A DNA stretch of 64,000 nt from Oryzomicrobium sp. GTDB taxonomy: Bacteria > Pseudomonadota > Gammaproteobacteria > Burkholderiales > Rhodocyclaceae. Positions within the stretch are counted from its first letter, which is position 1, and each line of letters begins with the position of its first letter. Shown piece after piece: positions 1 through 7,334 of this stretch. The notes beneath the pieces were generated by a model that saw only the letters and a list, made by a program, of their open reading frames with translations, was not told the DNA's origin and did not search any database. A program made the translations under genes and the position numbers. The stretch covers positions 295,241-359,240 of the forward strand of contig NZ_JAJTBG010000003.1 in NCBI RefSeq assembly GCF_021287045.1, read 5' to 3'.

Positions 1-44
1 CCGCCGTGGGTGACGCCATGCGCGGCGCCGGCCTTATCAAGTAG
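1..44 (+). CDS. 3' end of an unidentified upstream gene (partial)
   Basis: Only the last 13 codons are inside the window, reading AVGDAMRGAGLIK and ending at TAG 42-44. That is too little to name the product. The stop codon overlaps the AGGAGG ribosome binding site of the next gene, whose ATG is 12 bases downstream, so the two are very probably co-transcribed and co-translated. If the following operon is indeed Fap-like, this gene is where a FapA-like chaperone or another early operon member would be expected. Confidence 0.6.
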   Translation, partial: AVGDAMRGAGLIK

Positions 45-56
45 GAGGCAGCCGCC

Positions 57-710
57 ATGTCCACGCCCTCCTCCAAAACGCAACTGATGCAGACGCTGTA
101 CACCGCGCTGCTGTGCGGCAGTTGCCTCCTCGCCGCCACTCCCGCTGCGGCCCAGATAGTTCTGTTGCCTGCTCCGGCCGACGGCCTGGTCCGCGATACC
201 AGCGTGATCGGCGAAGGCGCCATGAGCGGCGTCAGCGGCATCAGCAGCGTCAATAGTTCCGCCGGCGATTTCAACCAGCAGGCCAACGTCCGCGCCATCA
301 GCATCAACCCGGGCGGCACGGCCAATGCCCAGAACCAGGTGAGCCAGTTCCAGGGCCCAGAGTTTTCCACCCCGGTGGGCCAGGCGGACGTACAGATCAG
401 GGCAGGTGCCTACACCGGCTCCATGGGAATCATGGGGGTGAATCAGGCGGCAGGCATCGCCAACAGTCAGGTCAATGGCTTGGCCATTGGCATCGGAACA
501 CGCGTCGAAGCCGTGGGGGACAGCACGCTGGCCACCATGGCTCCACGGGTGAGCAGTCTGGGCGGCAACACGCCGGGCGCTTCCAGCAACCAGAAGGTCG
601 GGGTCGACGACACCGCCTTCGCGGGTGCACGGGGCATCCTGCAGCTCAACCAGACGGCCGGCACGGGCAACCGTTCGGCCAACACGCTGGGCATCCAGAT
701 ATCCCGGTAG
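57..710 (+). CDS. Secreted repeat protein, FapB-like minor amyloid subunit candidate
   Basis: The 217-residue product starts with a signal peptide (hydrophobic stretch about 13-27, likely cleavage after the AAA before Q33). The mature part holds three degenerate 29-residue repeats at about residues 55-83, 118-146 and 187-215. They share the pattern A-x-x-G-x-x-G-I-x-x-V/L-N-x-x-A-G-x-x-N-x-x-x-N-x-x-A/G-I-x-I. The same pattern, better preserved, occurs in the next gene. Short Gly/Ala/Asn/Gln-rich repeats, a signal peptide and position ahead of a larger repeat protein and a C39 peptidase match FapB, the minor or nucleating subunit of Pseudomonas Fap fibrils. Start choice is supported by AGGAGG 9 bases upstream. 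The Fap assignment is inference from architecture; it could also be another repeat adhesin. Confidence 0.6.
   Translation: MSTPSSKTQLMQTLYTALLCGSCLLAATPAAAQIVLLPAPADGLVRDTSVIGEGAMSGVSGISSVNSSAGDFNQQANVRAISINPGGTANAQNQVSQFQGPEFSTPVGQADVQIRAGAYTGSMGIMGVNQAAGIANSQVNGLAIGIGTRVEAVGDSTLATMAPRVSSLGGNTPGASSNQKVGVDDTAFAGARGILQLNQTAGTGNRSANTLGIQISR
219..701 (+). repeat. Three degenerate 29-codon repeats in the FapB-like gene
   Basis: Repeat units lie at 219-305, 408-494 and 615-701 with linkers of 34 and 40 codons. All three keep the Gly, the N-x-x-A-G core, two Asn residues and the terminal I-x-I, while other positions vary, as expected for stacked beta-strand repeats of an amyloid or solenoid. The last unit ends two codons before the stop. 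Confidence 0.65.
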
Positions 711-751
711 CCCGGAGTTCTTACGCAGCAACCTCTCTCAAGGAGCGCATC

Positions 752-1699
752 ATGAACACTCGCACCAAAATCACGCCCGTTGCCCTGGCGCTGCTTGCCA
801 TGGGTGCTTCCAGTGTCTGGGCCGGCGAAGACGGCGGCGGAGATGGCCGTGGTGGCGACCGCCACCATCGCATGCCCCCGCCGCCCCCCCCGACCTACGC
901 CTCCGCCACGGTGAACGACACCCAGAACAACGTAGCCAACGTCGGCGTCAACGACGAGCTGGAAAACAAGGCCAGCCTCAGCGGTGGCTCCCTGTCGGGT
1001 GCATCGGGCAACATCGGCGTGAACATCGGCGCCGGCGACAACAACCAGCAGGCCAATGCCGCCGCCCTATCATCGGCCGACGCCTCCTTCGTCTTCGACC
1101 ATGCCACGGCCAGCGCTACCGCCAGCCAGTACAACGCCAGCAACCTCACCTCCAACGCCGGGGTGACCAACTCGGCGACCCTGGACGGCGGTTCCCTGAG
1201 CGGTGCTTCGGGCAACATCGGGGTCAACATCACTGCCGGCAACAACAACCAGCAGAAGAACGACCTGACTGCCTCGGTGGCGAACGCCAAGAACACCAGC
1301 GCATCCGTGACTGCCAACCAGAACTCCACCAGCAATACCACCACCAACTCGCCGGTGCGTATCTACCAGACCACCTATGAGACGGTGACACTGCAAGGTG
1401 GCATGTTCGGCGGCTATCAGGGCAGCACCGTGTCCTGGGAGCCTAGCAGCGGTCACGGCGACGATCATGGCCGCGGCGGCACGGAGTACGGCTACGAGGC
1501 CGGCGACATCGCCCTGGCCGGTTGCTTCACCGCCAACATCCCGGTGCAGACCCTGTCGGTGAACAAGCTGACCACCAACACCGCAACCCTTGGTGGCGGC
1601 TCCCTGTCAGGCGCGTCGGGCAACATCGGCGTGAATATCGCTGCCGGCACGGGTAACCAGCAGTTCAACGGCCTGTCCATCGTTGCCGCGACGAAGTAA
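752..1699 (+). CDS. Secreted repeat protein, FapC-like major amyloid subunit candidate
   Basis: The 315-residue product has a signal peptide (cleavage expected after VWA at residue 24), a Gly/Asp/His-rich segment and a run of six prolines (42-47). Three nearly identical 25-residue repeats follow at 78-102, 146-170 and 282-306, each with GGSLSGASGNIGVNI followed by A-G-x-x-N-Q-Q-x-N. Linkers are Ser/Thr/Asn-rich; the second is 111 residues and contains a Tyr/Thr-rich stretch and a His/Asp/Gly-rich patch near 233-248. Three conserved repeats with variable-length linkers match FapC, the main Fap fibril protein. It differs in having a single cysteine (C258), so the CxxC motif I recall near the C-terminus of Pseudomonas FapC is absent. 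A purine-rich AAGGAG lies 8 bases before the ATG. Confidence 0.65.
   Translation: MNTRTKITPVALALLAMGASSVWAGEDGGGDGRGGDRHHRMPPPPPPTYASATVNDTQNNVANVGVNDELENKASLSGGSLSGASGNIGVNIGAGDNNQQANAAALSSADASFVFDHATASATASQYNASNLTSNAGVTNSATLDGGSLSGASGNIGVNITAGNNNQQKNDLTASVANAKNTSASVTANQNSTSNTTTNSPVRIYQTTYETVTLQGGMFGGYQGSTVSWEPSSGHGDDHGRGGTEYGYEAGDIALAGCFTANIPVQTLSVNKLTTNTATLGGGSLSGASGNIGVNIAAGTGNQQFNGLSIVAATK
983..1669 (+). repeat. Three highly conserved 25-codon repeats in the FapC-like gene
   Basis: Units at 983-1057, 1187-1261 and 1595-1669 encode the same GGSLSGASGNIGVNI core followed by A-G-x-x-N-Q-Q-x-N. The core is identical at protein level in all three but differs at many third codon positions, so selection acts on the protein and the copies are not recent duplications. 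Confidence 0.8.
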
Positions 1700-1780
1700 G
1701 ACAGTCGTACGCATCTGCCCGGAGCGGAGGGCGGCTCGCCGTCTTCCGCTCCACATGCCCTTTTTGCCGGGAGGATATTC

Positions 1781-2521
1781 ATGTGCCAACGTACTTCGCT
1801 TTCGTCGGCAAGCGGTCGTAACGGAATACCCCGTCCCCTTGGGCTGGCAGTTCTGATCGGACTGGCATTCCTCACCCCTGCCGTGGTTTTCGCCGGCAAC
1901 GTGCCTCTGGCAGGCGTCGTACCGGGAACCGTCATCTCGAAACAGGTGCAGAGTGCCCGGGAGCGCAAGTTCGAAGACGTCGTCGAGCAGAAGACCGATT
2001 TCAGTTGCGGCGCTGCGGCACTGGCCACCATCCTCCAGGAGGCCTATCACCGCGACCTCAGTGAAAACCAGGTGGTCCAGGCGATGCTAAAGATCTCAGA
2101 CCCTGCCGTTGTCCGCGAGCAGGGTTTTTCGTTGCTGGACGTCAAGCACTACCTGGAAACCCTGGGCATGCGCGGCCGGGGCTACCGGGTCCCTCCCGAA
2201 GTCCTCAAGGAGGTGAAGGTGCCGGCGATCGTGCTGCTCAACTACAAGGGATACAAGCATTTCGTAGTGTTGCGCCGTGCCACGGATGAACAGGTGTACC
2301 TGGGCGACCCCGCCCTGGGCAACCGGGTGATGCCCCTCGACGAGTTCGCCAAGGGGTGGAACGGAGTGATCTTTGCCGTGATCGGCAACGATTACGACCA
2401 AGGCAATGCCCTCCCCCACCCCCGGGAGGCCCTGACGGTCTGGACGTCGATGAACCGCTTCACTCCGGTTCCGGAGCCATCCCTGCGGGACTTCGGTTTC
2501 ATCCGTGCCGACTTTTTCTAA
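1781..2521 (+). CDS. C39-family cysteine peptidase, FapD-like
   Basis: The 246-residue product has an N-terminal hydrophobic signal or anchor (about 20-38) followed by a C39 peptidase domain. The catalytic cysteine sits in TDFSCGAAAL (C76), the histidine in YKHFVVL (H160) and the aspartate in LGDPALG (D176), so the triad is complete. There is no ABC transporter portion, unlike bacteriocin C39 exporters, but stand-alone periplasmic C39 peptidases are the hallmark of Fap operons (FapD), where they are needed for fibril export. It lies directly after the two repeat proteins, with GGGAGG 7 bases before the ATG. Likely substrates are the neighbouring secreted proteins or the barrel gene product; no Gly-Gly leader is obvious in them. 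Confidence 0.8.
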   Translation: MCQRTSLSSASGRNGIPRPLGLAVLIGLAFLTPAVVFAGNVPLAGVVPGTVISKQVQSARERKFEDVVEQKTDFSCGAAALATILQEAYHRDLSENQVVQAMLKISDPAVVREQGFSLLDVKHYLETLGMRGRGYRVPPEVLKEVKVPAIVLLNYKGYKHFVVLRRATDEQVYLGDPALGNRVMPLDEFAKGWNGVIFAVIGNDYDQGNALPHPREALTVWTSMNRFTPVPEPSLRDFGFIRADFF

Positions 2522-2522
2522 A

Positions 2523-2541
2523 GGACATGCCCAGCATGTCC
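2523..2541 (+). other. Intercistronic hairpin between C39 peptidase and next gene
   Basis: GGACATGC and GCATGTCC form a perfect 8-bp stem around a CCA loop, starting one base after the peptidase stop codon. There is no T-run, and the next gene's GGGAGG follows immediately. It could protect the upstream message from 3' decay or tune expression of the next gene rather than terminate. Confidence 0.5.
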
Positions 2542-2552
2542 GGGAGGTTTTC

Positions 2553-3347
2553 ATGATCCACGCGAACTCCCCCACGCCCCGGCGAAAGCTGGCTGTATTG
2601 GCGCTCGCCCTGACCAGCTTGACCCCTGGTCTGGCCCATCCGATGACGACCACCGATCTGATGGCCAGCGAGGTCAGCGACGATGATCTGGCCAGCATGC
2701 GCGGCCGCTACATCGCGCCGAACCAGATTCTCAGTTTCGGCGTGCAGATGAGCACCACCTGGCAAACTCCCGGGGGCGGCATCGTCTCCACCGTGACCTT
2801 CCAGGTGAATCCCCAGTTCCAGCCGACCATCACCATCGACACCACGCCCCAGGGCGCCTCATCGCCCCAACCCCAGACCGCCACATCCCCGGCATCCACG
2901 TCCGTCGTCACAGCGGGCGGTATCGGCAACGTTGCAGGCGTCACCCAGACCATCCAGACCGCCGGCAACAGCAATGACGTGGCCAACAACATTCAGTTGA
3001 ACCTGACGAGTTCATCGCAACCCACCTCGCCTGGCGCCGGCAGCAACACCATCGTCATCACCGGCCCCGGTACCTATACCCAGACCCAGGGCAATACCAA
3101 AACGACGGTAGTGCTGGATAGCAATGGTCTGGCACTCAACCTCTCCATGCCCGGCGAGGGTTCGACCCTGCAACAGGTGGGCAGCCAAGGGCTGCGTCAG
3201 AGCGTCCAGATAATCAGCGATTTAAACCTGGTGCGTAATTCCATGGTTGCCATCGCCCAACTCAAGACACCTATGCTGGGAACCGAAACCCTTGGGCGAA
3301 CCCTAAACTCCCTACAGGGGCTATCCAAGACGGGCGGATGGTATTAA
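2553..3347 (+). CDS. Secreted Fap-operon protein, FapE-like position
   Basis: The 264-residue product begins with a signal peptide (hydrophobic about 13-27). After it comes an acidic motif DDDLASMRGRY (about 44-54), then a Ser/Thr/Gln/Pro-rich region and one degenerate copy of the operon's repeat around residues 123-151, reading A-G-G-I-G-N-V-A-G-V-T-Q then TAGNSNDVANN. The C-terminal third is predicted mixed and ends in Gly-Trp-Tyr. Size and place match FapE of Pseudomonas, but I see no sequence signature that proves this. The ATG at 2553 was chosen because GGGAGG precedes it by 6 bases; the in-frame ATG at 2505 overlaps the upstream gene and lacks a site. Confidence 0.55.
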   Translation: MIHANSPTPRRKLAVLALALTSLTPGLAHPMTTTDLMASEVSDDDLASMRGRYIAPNQILSFGVQMSTTWQTPGGGIVSTVTFQVNPQFQPTITIDTTPQGASSPQPQTATSPASTSVVTAGGIGNVAGVTQTIQTAGNSNDVANNIQLNLTSSSQPTSPGAGSNTIVITGPGTYTQTQGNTKTTVVLDSNGLALNLSMPGEGSTLQQVGSQGLRQSVQIISDLNLVRNSMVAIAQLKTPMLGTETLGRTLNSLQGLSKTGGWY

Positions 3348-3360
3348 TTCTCAACAATGC

Positions 3361-3387
3361 GGGCCTCACAAATGAGGCCCTTTTTTT
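3361..3387 (+). terminator. Rho-independent terminator after the repeat-protein operon
   Basis: GGGCCTCA, a CAAA loop and TGAGGCCC form a perfect 8-bp stem followed by seven T residues, 13 bases after the stop of the FapE-like gene. It separates that gene from the barrel gene, which has its own 129-bp AT-rich leader. Confidence 0.9.
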
Positions 3388-3516
3388 GCCATTCACCATG
3401 TTAATTGCATGGAAAAATGGCAATTTGGTTTTAACATTGGCTACATGTTACTGACTGCTGGCCAGATAGTTCTTTAGCGCTTTTGCAGGGTTTTTCCACT
3501 TAACAGGGGATGGAAA

Positions 3517-4848
3517 ATGAATCACCCGAAAAAAGTAGTGCTTGCCGTATTAATCGCCTCCGCATTTTCAACCACTGCATTTCCGGCATTTGCCGAAAGT
3601 GACGACATCGTCCAATTGAAGCGTCAGTTGCGCGAATTGACCGAGCGCTACGAGTCCCAGCGGGTCGCCACCGAACAGCTTGAGGTCCGCATACGACGCC
3701 AGGAAGCCCTCCTGGCCGCCTACACCAACGGCAATGCCCAGCTGGCCCAGGCCGATGCGCCGGCCCGGGGCCGCTTCTTCCGCACCGCCGACGGCGCGGC
3801 GGGCGATGCCGGCGCAGCCGGAGCCAGCGGCAACGCCGAAAGCACCTCGCCCGGCAGCGGCGGCGACACCCTCAAGGCGCCTCCGCCGTCACGCAGCGCC
3901 CAGGCGGTCTACCAGGAACAGGCCGGCGGCGTGTTCGGCCAGCCACGGCGCTGGACCTTCGAAACGGGGCTGACCTACACCCACTACGATTCGCGCCAGC
4001 TGCTGCTCAACGGCTTCCTGGCCCTCGACACCATTTTCCTCGGCAACATCAACGTCAACCGTATCCAGGCCGACATGCTGACCCTGGACCTGACCACCCG
4101 CTACGCCATTTCCGACCGGGCCCAGGTGGACTTCAACGCCCCCTTCCTCTACCGCCGCAGCAACTTCCAGTCCGGCGGCGCCGGCGGCGCGGCCGGCGCC
4201 CTGTCCGAGGCCACCGTCACCCAGTCGCCGCGGCTGGGCGACGTGAACATGGGCTTCTACTACAAGCTGCTGGCCGAAACCAAGGACAACCCGGACGTGG
4301 TGTGGAACGTCCGCCTCAAGGCTCCCACCGGCAGCAACCCCTACGGTGTGAAGATCGTCACCGACAGCGGCAACAACAACCTTCAGTACCCCTCCAAGCT
4401 GCCCTCGGGCAACGGGGTGTGGACCCTGTCGAGCGGCTTCTCCTTCATCAAGACGGTGGACCCGGCGATTCTCTTCGCCAACGTGGCCTACTACCACAAT
4501 TTCAAGCGCTCTTTCGGCGACATCAGCTCCACCGAGGGCACGGTCACCCCGGGCAGCGTCAAACTGGGCGACGTATTCCAGTGGGGCGTGGGCACTGCCT
4601 TCGCCCTCAACGAGCGCAGCAGCCTGAGCCTGGGCTTCACCCAGGCCATCTCCCAGCGCAGCAGTCTCCAGCCCGACGGCCAGTCGGCCCAGACCATCGT
4701 CGGCAGCAACGCCAACGCGGCGACCTTCAACGTGGGCCTGACCTTCGCCTCCAGCGACCGGACCACCATCATCGGCAACCTGGGCATCGGCCTCACACCG
4801 GACGCGCCCAACTTCACCATCGGCCTGAAGATTCCCTACACCTTCTGA
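3517..4848 (+). CDS. Outer-membrane beta-barrel with N-terminal coiled coil, FapF-like
   Basis: The 443-residue product has a clear signal peptide (cleavage near AFA-E27). Residues about 28-75 form a charged heptad-like coiled coil (DIVQLKRQLRELTERYESQR onward). A Gly/Ala/Ser-rich flexible stretch follows to about 125, and from about 140 alternating aromatic and polar strands run to a terminal Phe (IPYTF), the usual outer-membrane signal. Coiled coil, disordered linker, then barrel is the architecture of FapF, the trimeric pore that secretes Fap subunits. Because the preceding operon carries matching substrates and a C39 peptidase, it is probably their exporter, but it is transcribed separately after a terminator. 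Database names for such barrels are often uninformative. GGGGATGGAAA precedes the ATG. Confidence 0.65.
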   Translation: MNHPKKVVLAVLIASAFSTTAFPAFAESDDIVQLKRQLRELTERYESQRVATEQLEVRIRRQEALLAAYTNGNAQLAQADAPARGRFFRTADGAAGDAGAAGASGNAESTSPGSGGDTLKAPPPSRSAQAVYQEQAGGVFGQPRRWTFETGLTYTHYDSRQLLLNGFLALDTIFLGNINVNRIQADMLTLDLTTRYAISDRAQVDFNAPFLYRRSNFQSGGAGGAAGALSEATVTQSPRLGDVNMGFYYKLLAETKDNPDVVWNVRLKAPTGSNPYGVKIVTDSGNNNLQYPSKLPSGNGVWTLSSGFSFIKTVDPAILFANVAYYHNFKRSFGDISSTEGTVTPGSVKLGDVFQWGVGTAFALNERSSLSLGFTQAISQRSSLQPDGQSAQTIVGSNANAATFNVGLTFASSDRTTIIGNLGIGLTPDAPNFTIGLKIPYTF

Positions 4849-4861
4849 TCGGCCGGCACGC

Positions 4862-4897
4862 CATGAAAAAACCCGCCTTACGGCGGGTTTTTTCATG
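4862..4897. terminator. Bidirectional terminator between converging units
   Basis: Two 16-base arms pair perfectly around a TTAC loop. The 5' arm carries an A-tract before the GC stem and the 3' arm a T-tract after it, so it can end transcription of the barrel gene from the left and of the minus-strand symporter genes from the right. Confidence 0.9.
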
Positions 4898-4936
4898 CTG
4901 GGCGATGGCCCCGTAGCCAAGCCTTGCCTGTGCCTC

Positions 4937-5246: not shown

Positions 5247-7334
5247 TCAAAAGCCCTCCCGCTCCAGGCGCGGGTAGCGGATGCGGGTCACCACGTTCTG
5301 GGTTGCGGGCGGTGGCGGCGGGGTCAGCAGGCTCACCACCACGATGGTGATGAAGCCCAGGGGCACCCCCCAGACGCCGGCGGCGGTGGAATCGATGCCG
5401 AACCAGGGCTCCATGGCGATGCCGTGCAGCCCCAGCCAGGGAATGCTGTCGAACTGGACCCGCACCATGTAGTAGAGCGTCACCCCCAGCCCCACGAGCA
5501 TCCCCGCCACTGCCCCGGCCCGGTTGGCGCGGCGCCAGAAGATGCCCATCACCAAGGCCGGGAAGAAGGCCGCCCCGGCGATGGAGAAGGCCCAGGCCAC
5601 CATGTAGAGGATGGTGGAGGGCCGCTGGGCGGCCAGGGTGGCGGCGCAGATGGCCACCACCAGCAGCAGGGATTTCGATACCACCAGCCGCCACTGGGTC
5701 GAGGCCTGGGGACGGAAGATCTTGTAATAGACGTCGTGGGACAGGGCGCTGGTGATCACCAGCAGCAGCCCGTCGGCGGTGGACAGGGCCGCCGCCAGGC
5801 CGCCGGCGGCCACCAGGCCGGAGACCACGTAGGGCAGCCCGGCGATTTCCGGAGTGGCGAGCACGATCACGTCCGGATTGAGCGACAGTTCGGCCCATTG
5901 CAACAGGCCGTCCCGGTTGATGTCCTCGATGTGCACCAGCCCCACCTTGCCCCAGGCCGCCACCCAGGAGGGCAGCTTGATGATGGGGGTGTTGATCAGG
6001 CTGGAGAACACCTCCAACTTGGCATACACCGCGTAGGCCGGCGCCGCGATGTAGAGCATGAGGATGAACAGCAAGGACCAGAACACCGAGTCCCGGGCCT
6101 CCTGGACCGTGGGGGTGGTGTAGTAGCGCATCAGCACATGGGGCAAGGCCGCGGTGCCGATCATCAGGCAGAACATGAGGGACAGGAAATTGAGCCTGGC
6201 CTGGCCCGGATCGCTGCCCGGCCGCGGCTCGAAGGCATCGGCATGGCGGATCGGCTGGGCGCCCCGGTCCGCCGCCTCGCGCATCTGGGATTCCCATTTC
6301 ACCCGAGCCTCTTCCGGGCTGCGAGGCAGTTCGCGCCGCTCCTTTTCCACCGCCACGATGTCGCGCAGCAGGGCGTTGTTGGCCTTCATCTCATTGAGCC
6401 GGGTGGTCAGCCGGGCCCGTTCCTCCTCCAGGGAATCCGGCAGGCGCACGATGCGCTCGTAGATGGCGTCTGCCCGGGCCCGATAGAGGTCCCGGGCTTC
6501 CTTTTCGGCGGGCAGGTCGAAAATCTGCTCCTCCAGCCGGGATACCTGTTGCACCGCCTCGCCGTAGGCCACCGGCGGCACCATGCTGCCGCTCACCTTA
6601 TAGCCGAGGATGCATACCGGAGTCAGGTAGGCGATGATCAGGATGACGAACTGGGCGACCTGGGTCCAGGTCACCGCCCGCATGCCGCCCAGGAACGAGC
6701 AGACCAGGATGCCGGCCAGGCCGACGAACACACCGATCTCGAACTGGAGGCCGACAAAGCGGCTGGTGATCAGCCCCACGCCATAGATCTGGGCCACCAC
6801 GTAGACGAACGAGGCCAGGATGGCAGCCACCACCCCCACCAGGCGCGGCAGGGTGCCGCCGTAGCGGGCGGCGAGGAAGTCGGGAATGGTGTACTGGCCG
6901 AACTTACGCAGGTAGGGGGCGAGCAGCAGGGCCACCAGCACGTAGCCCCCGGTCCAGCCCATCACGTAGGCCAGGCCCTGGAAGCCCGAGAGGAAGAGCA
7001 TGCCGGCCAGGCCGATGAACGAGGCGGCGCTCATCCAGTCGGCCCCGGTGGCCATGCCGTTGAAGATGGCCGGCACCCGACGGCCTGCCACGTAGTACTC
7101 GGTCACGTCGGAAGTGCGCGACAGGATGCCAATGGTGGCGTAGAGCAGGATGGTAAACAGCAGGAAGGCGTAGCCGATCCAGCGCGGCGGCATGCCCATC
7201 TGTTCCAGCCCGGCCAGGGCGAGCACGAACAGGATGAACCCGGCGGTGTAGGCCAGATAGTAGCGGCGCAGCTGGGGCACGAACCCGGCCCCGCCGCGAA
7301 TCGCTCCGAACCAGCGCATCAATCCTCGGGCCAT
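5247..7334 (-). CDS. Sodium:solute symporter large subunit (VC_2705 type, acetate-permease-like)
   Basis: The 695-residue integral membrane protein belongs to the SSS family and resembles ActP-type cation/carboxylate symporters. It has the family segments TGADWMSAASFIG and the long hydrophobic helices LLLVITSALS and VAWAFSIAGAAFFPALV. Between about residues 235 and 365 a charged, largely helical insertion (many Glu/Arg/Leu heptads) interrupts the transmembrane core, probably a cytoplasmic loop. It sits 12 bases downstream of the exonuclease gene in a cluster headed by acetyl-CoA synthetase, which suggests acetate or another short-chain carboxylate as substrate. Substrate is inference from context. 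Confidence 0.85.
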   Translation of the reverse strand: MARGLMRWFGAIRGGAGFVPQLRRYYLAYTAGFILFVLALAGLEQMGMPPRWIGYAFLLFTILLYATIGILSRTSDVTEYYVAGRRVPAIFNGMATGADWMSAASFIGLAGMLFLSGFQGLAYVMGWTGGYVLVALLLAPYLRKFGQYTIPDFLAARYGGTLPRLVGVVAAILASFVYVVAQIYGVGLITSRFVGLQFEIGVFVGLAGILVCSFLGGMRAVTWTQVAQFVILIIAYLTPVCILGYKVSGSMVPPVAYGEAVQQVSRLEEQIFDLPAEKEARDLYRARADAIYERIVRLPDSLEEERARLTTRLNEMKANNALLRDIVAVEKERRELPRSPEEARVKWESQMREAADRGAQPIRHADAFEPRPGSDPGQARLNFLSLMFCLMIGTAALPHVLMRYYTTPTVQEARDSVFWSLLFILMLYIAAPAYAVYAKLEVFSSLINTPIIKLPSWVAAWGKVGLVHIEDINRDGLLQWAELSLNPDVIVLATPEIAGLPYVVSGLVAAGGLAAALSTADGLLLVITSALSHDVYYKIFRPQASTQWRLVVSKSLLLVVAICAATLAAQRPSTILYMVAWAFSIAGAAFFPALVMGIFWRRANRAGAVAGMLVGLGVTLYYMVRVQFDSIPWLGLHGIAMEPWFGIDSTAAGVWGVPLGFITIVVVSLLTPPPPPATQNVVTRIRYPRLEREGF

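Follow-up and report, generated by a model that had tools for sequence, protein, structure and literature searches.

A C39-leader-like block in FapE, candidate target of the FapD peptidase in a Fap functional-amyloid operon of Oryzomicrobium sp.

The stretch of DNA analysed here, 64,000 nucleotides from Oryzomicrobium sp. (assembly GCF_021287045.1, contig NZ_JAJTBG010000003.1, positions 295,241 to 359,240; hereafter the window), opens with the genes of a Fap functional-amyloid operon, among them those for the C39 peptidase FapD and for FapE. We found that FapE carries, shortly after its signal-peptide-like start, a conserved block that resembles the leaders read by C39 peptidases, and that similar blocks occur in FapX, a small protein encoded at the operon head, and in FapA. 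We thus propose FapE and FapX as proteins whose leader is read by FapD, and FapA as a possible mimic, and we put the probability of this reading as a whole at about 70%. Gene identities, conservation and register of the block and its association with FapD-type genes were seen directly; from them we infer binding, cleavage and the order of events.

The FapE block has the register of a C39 leader

According to published rules, the double-glycine leaders of C39 peptidases have a consensus of Leu at -12, Glu at -8 and Leu at -7, with position -4 hydrophobic (PMC6363468). The FapE block (Table 1) follows the consensus [LIV]-x-D-x-E-L-x-x-M-R-G-[RK], with Tyr next to it. Among 77 aligned FapE sequences, position -12 is hydrophobic in 77, -10 is Asp in 71, -8 is acidic in 68 (Glu in 66, Asp in 2), -7 is Leu or Met in 77 and -4 is hydrophobic in 76, while Arg at -3, Gly at -2 and an aromatic residue at +1 occur in 77 each. 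The recognition positions of a double-glycine leader (hydrophobic -12, acidic -8, Leu -7, hydrophobic -4) are thus all present in FapE. The Gly-Gly, Gly-Ala or Gly-Ser expected at -2/-1 is not, as the Gly at -2 is followed by Arg or Lys in 77/77 (65 Arg, 12 Lys). Because of this residue at -1, FapE, judged by its sequence, is leader-like and not a canonical double-glycine substrate.

The 77 sequences are those with a locus at hand: 21 from wide-context loci, 27 belonging to a single order and 29 to the family that includes an OprF-bearing genome, probably Pseudomonadaceae. Of the matching genomes (37/299) the best 30 places were taken, three of them already counted, and the weakest matches lie outside this set. 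A 78th match, the cut end of a FapE gene at L007, was dropped, the gene having been counted already.

A strict leader pattern was found in 15/21 FapE (13 at the aligned place), against 2/19 FapB, 0/20 FapC, 3/27 FapD, 1/27 FapF and 0/2 FapA, with rates of 3 to 9% in shuffled sequences. The recognition half alone was present in 49/61 FapE, 3/58 FapB, 1/60 FapC and 11/61 FapD. With such counts FapB and FapC were rejected as candidate FapD substrates, and the statement in one paper that FapD modifies FapC (PMC10638192) found no support in the sequences scanned. A search of the PDB with the FapE profile gave no match up to an E value of 0.1.

FapD is the only C39 peptidase found in the genome

In FapD the predicted catalytic residues are Cys76 (nucleotides 2006-2008), His160 (2258-2260) and Asp176 (2306-2308); His and Asp are invariant with LahT in the alignment, and Cys was read from the sequence. 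FapD was the sole C39 match in this genome, which is 98.66% complete, and therefore the reader of the leader here, if it is a C39 enzyme, is FapD.

Published observations on relatives bear on this assignment. FapC secretion depends on FapD and on its active-site Cys, and peptides of the first ~70 residues of FapE were not observed (PMC5557850); both fit FapD cutting the FapE leader. The substrate of FapD was termed undetermined in 2018 (PMC6173800), and by 2025 it was thought to be the FapE N-terminus together with the periplasmic part of FapF (PMC12822426). What is in print thus already suggests FapE or the FapF linker as the likely FapD substrate (PMC5557850; PMC12822426). In the accessible parts of the open-licence literature we did not find the exact leader, its occurrence in FapX or FapA, the contrast between RGG and RG[RK] endings described below, or the fapX gene.

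Similar blocks in FapX and FapA

FapX was recognised with a profile grown from eight operon-head open reading frames (ORFs), which found it in 9/61 Fap loci as a protein of 104-139 residues; a match to the FapB of L004 (E 0.00089) was dropped. Over 369 genomes the profile matched 12 places in 11 genomes, seven of which also carry FapE, and all 12 places adjoin Fap-type or FapD/FapF-type genes, some of them damaged or at a contig end. The members share the leader-like block and the motif V-x-L-W-D-[ES], usually with an N-x-Q tail. Among 14 FapX blocks of 12 residues, chosen from the alignment and by eye, -12 is hydrophobic and -7 is Leu in 14 each, -2 is Gly in 13, -1 is Arg or Lys in 9 and +1 is Gly in 12, so that most end in G-[RK] before Gly. 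Four members and that of the operon studied here had no Pfam or NCBIfam match above cut-off, and FapX was not assigned to a known family: the L087 member touches DUF6160 only at E 0.014, and two PDB matches of the FapX profile (3c0u, E 0.0092; 3a21, E 0.057) were taken as chance.

FapA, found by profile search in 49/61 loci, has a block, ELSDxDFAxVxSG, that fits the C39-leader register. In these 49 sequences -12 is hydrophobic in 49, -10 is Asp in 45, -8 is Asp or Glu in 43, -7 is aromatic or aliphatic in 46 and -4 is hydrophobic in 47; Gly stands at -1 in 37 and at -2 in 2. The rows from L004, L072, L082, L084, L085, L169 and L170 fit badly. Peptides of FapA were observed over its whole length (PMC5557850), and FapA is therefore not cut there. 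It is possible, going by the register of the block, that FapA is an uncut mimic of the leader.

Sister loci with a FapD-like peptidase carry RGG leaders

FapD-like peptidases also occur near FapF-like barrels in a sister set, of which 13 loci include the peptidase within the stretch examined (L088, L089, L090, L092, L093, L094, L124, L125, L126, L128, L130, L186, L187). Each of them shows a leader in register in one or more signal-like neighbours, and at 12 loci one such leader ends in RGG, as in LTDDEMSSLRGG before F in a Photobacterium and ITDYELATMRGG before I in a Polymorphobacter. At L127 no leader neighbour was found in the stretch, outside which its peptidase falls.

The association was counted with Fisher tests, from which the Acinetobacter Fil locus (L129) was excluded. 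At the first six sister loci the published consensus alone occurred in 9/26 ORFs near the peptidase and in 12/115 elsewhere (p 0.004). A blind count of an RG[GRK] pattern gave 17/60 near the peptidase against 2/225 elsewhere (p 5e-11), a test that is partly circular, as the pattern was devised after inspection of FapE and the first sister loci. Some matches near the peptidase are FapF-like barrels (L092, L126, L186) or probable wrong frames.

A FapE-type partner could be named in nine sister loci (L090, L093, L094, L124, L125, L126, L128, L186, L187), and its -1 residue is Gly in 9/9, as against Arg or Lys in 77/77 Fap FapE; most of these partners were found via the motif itself. Separate similarity to FapE was seen in three, namely L125 with the NCBIfam profile (E 0.0053, in the leader region) and L186 (E 4e-6) and L187 (E 6e-4) with our own profile, which also touches FapB-type ORFs. 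The sequences thus lend modest support to a contrast at -1 between sister and Fap partners. The peptidases differ as well: 76 Fap and 10 sister sequences are set apart at T72/Tyr, A78/Ser, A88/His and I99/Phe (Fap/sister), which would fit an altered pocket, and in the FapD tree 77 Fap tips (support 0.872) stand apart from 11 sister tips (0.971).

Six of 14 sister FapF-like barrels match the RG-type pattern, and in four of these (L089, L092, L126, L186) an RGG follows the coiled coil in leader register, as would agree with the published suggestion that the pore linker, too, can be cut by the peptidase.

Several further features of these loci were noted. Large secreted-looking ORFs of 511-659 residues with N- and S/T-rich starts adjoin sister FapD/FapF pairs (L089:4844-6823; L090:12111-14042, minus strand; L092:1357-2892) and may be the fibre proteins of those systems. 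The C39 gene on a plasmid of Vibrio sp. SCSIO 43009 (L093:9395-10073) consists of two overlapping frames of 72 and 184 residues, perhaps by a frameshift. In a second fap cluster of genome G323 (L184:5207-6988) the FapD gene lies in two pieces, and the intervening ORF (5358-6449) looks transposase-like by eye.

Proposed role of the leader and its alternatives

As published work on relatives indicates, Sec would carry the Fap proteins into the periplasm, FapF would serve as the outer-membrane pore, and FapC would form the fibre, which FapB probably nucleates. We propose that periplasmic FapD recognises the leader [LIV]-x-D-x-[DE]-[LM]-x-x-[MIL] in a register matching that of the double-glycine leaders read by cytosolic C39 peptidases. 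FapE would probably be cut after R-G-[RK], freeing its mature N-terminus and licensing secretion. As such a cut follows Arg or Lys, it would be indistinguishable from the trypsin digestion used in PMC5557850. FapX, exported, encoded at the operon head and bearing a similar block, would probably be a second FapD substrate, and the degenerate copy in FapA may dock on FapD uncut.

Several points weigh against this proposal. Arg or Lys at -1 is unusual for a C39 site, where Gly, Ala or Ser is expected, and the LahT pocket near the cut is narrow (PMC6363468). The FapE peptide gap reaches about residue 70, past the proposed site at residue 52. The authors of PMC5557850 described the Fap proteins as having no canonical C39 sequence and also weighed FapF as a substrate. 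The 77 FapE include close relatives, so that their counts are not independent. The RG[GRK] count is partly circular, as said above, and at the seven later-fetched sister loci the published consensus alone gave a weaker enrichment (10/34 near against 11/110 elsewhere, p 0.008). FapA, a bearer of the block, is left uncut there. Finally, the FapX profile found nothing in 52/61 Fap loci, including 20/20 of the OprF-bearing family and 20/20 of one order, although at least one of these negative loci is cut before the operon head (L005, cut near fapC, with the head outside view).

Some of these points would be accommodated if the block were a docking site for FapD and the cut were made elsewhere, either deeper in FapE, near residue 70, or in the FapF linker. 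The published FapE gap would then be explained, as would the FapF linker, likewise without peptides (PMC5557850); RGG stands in register in the four sister barrels mentioned, and of the Fap-clade FapF one (L072) carries the AGR-type VPDSELERLAGR and another (L073) a near match. Docking also agrees with the FapA block, which lacks the usual G at -2. However, FapE never departs from R-G-[RK], canonical RGG closes the leaders of the sister partners, and an RG-type site in register occurs in 0/22 Fap-clade FapF. We thus find a cut elsewhere unlikely; the FapF linker in particular is not favoured, given the 0/22, as the chief target of FapD in Fap, and is retained as an option for the sister barrels. 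It might also be assumed that FapF reads the block as a signal for secretion or pore targeting, with no relation to FapD, since FapE is reported to exit via FapF, a FapF-targeting sequence at its N-terminus was proposed in PMC5557850, and the sister loci hold FapF-like barrels besides FapD. Yet the register of the block is that of a C39 leader, FapB and FapC also pass FapF while lacking it, and FapA, thought to remain periplasmic, has it, which together make such a signal quite improbable in our opinion.

The locus could also be an ordinary Fap operon, with a block that is structural in FapE and with FapX as a lineage-specific accessory unconnected with FapD. Fap operons have long been known in Beta-, Gamma- and Deltaproteobacteria (PMC3792158), and the 52 FapX-negative loci agree with such an accessory. 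This explanation is nevertheless hard to credit when all 12 matches of the FapX profile adjoin Fap-type or FapD/FapF-type genes and related blocks recur in otherwise dissimilar proteins. Recognition of the leader by FapD is therefore the explanation we prefer.

Operon identity, repeats and upstream region

The first-pass annotation of the window had read five ORFs as a divergent Fap-like operon in the order fapB-C-D-E-F, and this was borne out: the ORFs lie on the plus strand at the positions in Table 1, and each matches its own NCBIfam Fap profile in sequence. A barrel unlike FapF or a peptidase unlike FapD had been named as the outcome that would overturn that annotation; as all five profiles matched, it did not arise. 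The peptidase also matches Pfam PF03412 (E 3.2e-22), and FapF residues 123-443 align with the solved FapF barrel (PDB 5o65, E 4.8e-108). The coiled coil ascribed to the barrel protein gave an E value of only 0.13 against the solved coiled-coil chain 6fue. The first PTG motif of FapF is present, and the second is PSG in the alignment. FapC aligns over its repeats with two PDB chains of FapC (9u4u and 9nqd, E about 1e-20), and it alone among FapA-FapF of this operon passes the curated NCBIfam cut-off. Start codons were taken as the first possible, and signal peptides were called with a rough hydrophobicity criterion.

The same annotation held that three proteins share one repeat. For FapB and FapC we could confirm it: the core GxxxxNxx[AG]GxxNxxxN occurs three times in FapB (nucleotides 237-287, 426-476 and 633-683) and three times in FapC (1007-1057, 1211-1261 and 1619-1669), compared with means of 0.000 and 0.002 copies, respectively, in composition-matched shuffles. 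The single degenerate copy claimed for FapE was not recovered; a scan for the core gave 0 copies there, and by eye two degenerate N/Q-rich stretches are seen in its C-terminal half. Beyond the window edge, and so unseen at first pass, lie the body of fapA, fapX and a sigma-54-type site; the FapE block had not been remarked on.

With fapA added directly upstream, the gene order fapABCDEF is complete. By its sequence, the locus is a genuine Fap functional-amyloid operon, fapX-fapA-fapB-fapC-fapD-fapE, and as an operon it is of a known kind. The usual deviations in operons of this type, which have been on record since 2013, are a missing fapA and a detached fapF (PMC3792158). Here fapF is probably a transcription unit separate from fapX-fapE. 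The gap before it holds a terminator-like hairpin, although such sites are not significant by count in 3300-4920 (2 seen, 1.5 expected). In Pseudomonas fluorescens PF07, fapA-E are under RpoN, with BrfA as regulator, and fapF has a different expression pattern (PMC9207406), so that sigma-54-type control is to be expected here. Chance alone does yield sites of the -24/-12 type scoring at least 9 (this 19.5-kb locus has 6, shuffles 3.35); they lie less than 130 bases from the operon head in 11/20 Fap loci, hand-chosen from the 61, as compared with 10/530 control ORFs.

Strong FapF matches are unevenly spread over the relatives: out of 61 genomes, including this one, only this genome and G044 matched at E < 1e-100, and the one genome of the same genus (G001) had no FapF match at E 0.001.

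Table 1. Features of the fap locus. Plain positions refer to the window; those prefixed L003 or G000:C16 refer to the wider locus record and the genome contig.
Feature	Position	Strand	Remarks
Sigma-54 activator with VpsR domain, divergent	L003:11243-12652	-	faces operon
-24/-12-type (sigma-54-type) site TGGCACGCTCTCTGCT	L003:13210		10/11 consensus positions; starts 89 bases before FapX start codon
fapX, 128-residue protein, signal-like start	L003:13299-13685 = G000:C16:294298-294684		operon head, upstream of fapA
fapA, whole gene	L003:13713-14285 = G000:C16:294712-295284	+	NCBIfam FapA E 7.4e-13, 49.1 bits, below cut-off of 110
fapA, 3' end	1-44	+	last 44 bases
fapB, minor amyloid subunit	57-710	+	NCBIfam FapB E 4.3e-33, below cut-off
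fapC, major amyloid subunit	752-1699	+	NCBIfam FapC E 5.6e-69, above curated cut-off
fapD, periplasmic C39 peptidase	1781-2521	+	NCBIfam FapD E 2.1e-89, 298.6 bits, below cut-off of 330
fapE, minor fibre-associated protein	2553-3347	+	NCBIfam FapE E 2.9e-38, below cut-off
C39-leader-like block VSDDDLASMRGR of FapE, residues 41-52	2673-2708	+	putative scissile bond after nucleotide 2708, before Tyr53
Terminator-like hairpin and T-tract, fapE/fapF gap	3361-3387	+	consensus scan
fapF, coiled coil and outer-membrane barrel, secretion pore	3517-4848	+	NCBIfam FapF E 8.5e-152, below cut-off

Relation to known systems and significance

The operon resembles Pseudomonas fapABCDEF (UK4, PAO1, Pf-5) in gene content and order, in the FapB and FapC repeats, in the C39 peptidase FapD and in the FapF pore, and the FapE leader block is found in 29/29 FapE of the OprF-bearing family. 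It differs in having fapX at its head, for which the 20 examined loci of that family gave no match, and in NCBIfam scores that, except for FapC, are below cut-off. A C39 peptidase and a FapF-like barrel are also shared with the Acinetobacter Fil cluster (filA-filF, a 'putative pilus system'): FapD matches the FilB model (E 7e-32), FapF matches the FilC model (E 1.1e-13), and FilA bears MDDAALSAATGQ near its N-terminus. In the Fil record, on the other hand, the FilA site is GQ, the C39 gene appears split in two, filE and filF come next, and neither FapB nor FapC is annotated, none having been searched for. With the C39 peptidases of ATP-binding cassette (ABC) exporters (LahT, PCAT1, ComA) FapD shares the catalytic residues, and the FapE block shares with their double-glycine leaders the hydrophobic -12, Glu -8, Leu -7, hydrophobic -4 and Gly -2. 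FapD is, however, stand-alone and periplasmic, with a published Sec signal peptide (PMC5557850), and -1 is Arg or Lys in FapE instead of Gly, Ala or Ser.

A broader idea, which we offer tentatively and at slightly less than even odds, is that FapD-type peptidases serve a widespread two-step export in Pseudomonadota: passage by Sec, then removal of a C39 leader in the periplasm and exit through a FapF-type pore, with at least one leader-bearing partner per cluster. In Fap this export would have been turned to amyloid, the site drifting from RGG to RG[RK] together with the peptidase, with FapX as a new small substrate, distinctive of part of the family, and FapA as a pseudo-substrate restraining FapD.

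With a candidate site this precise and conserved, the question of the FapD substrate becomes testable, and the leader gives a handle in searches for related export clusters that lack FapB or FapC. A leader common to FapE, FapX and FapA would, if true, explain why a bacteriocin-type peptidase is part of an amyloid operon.

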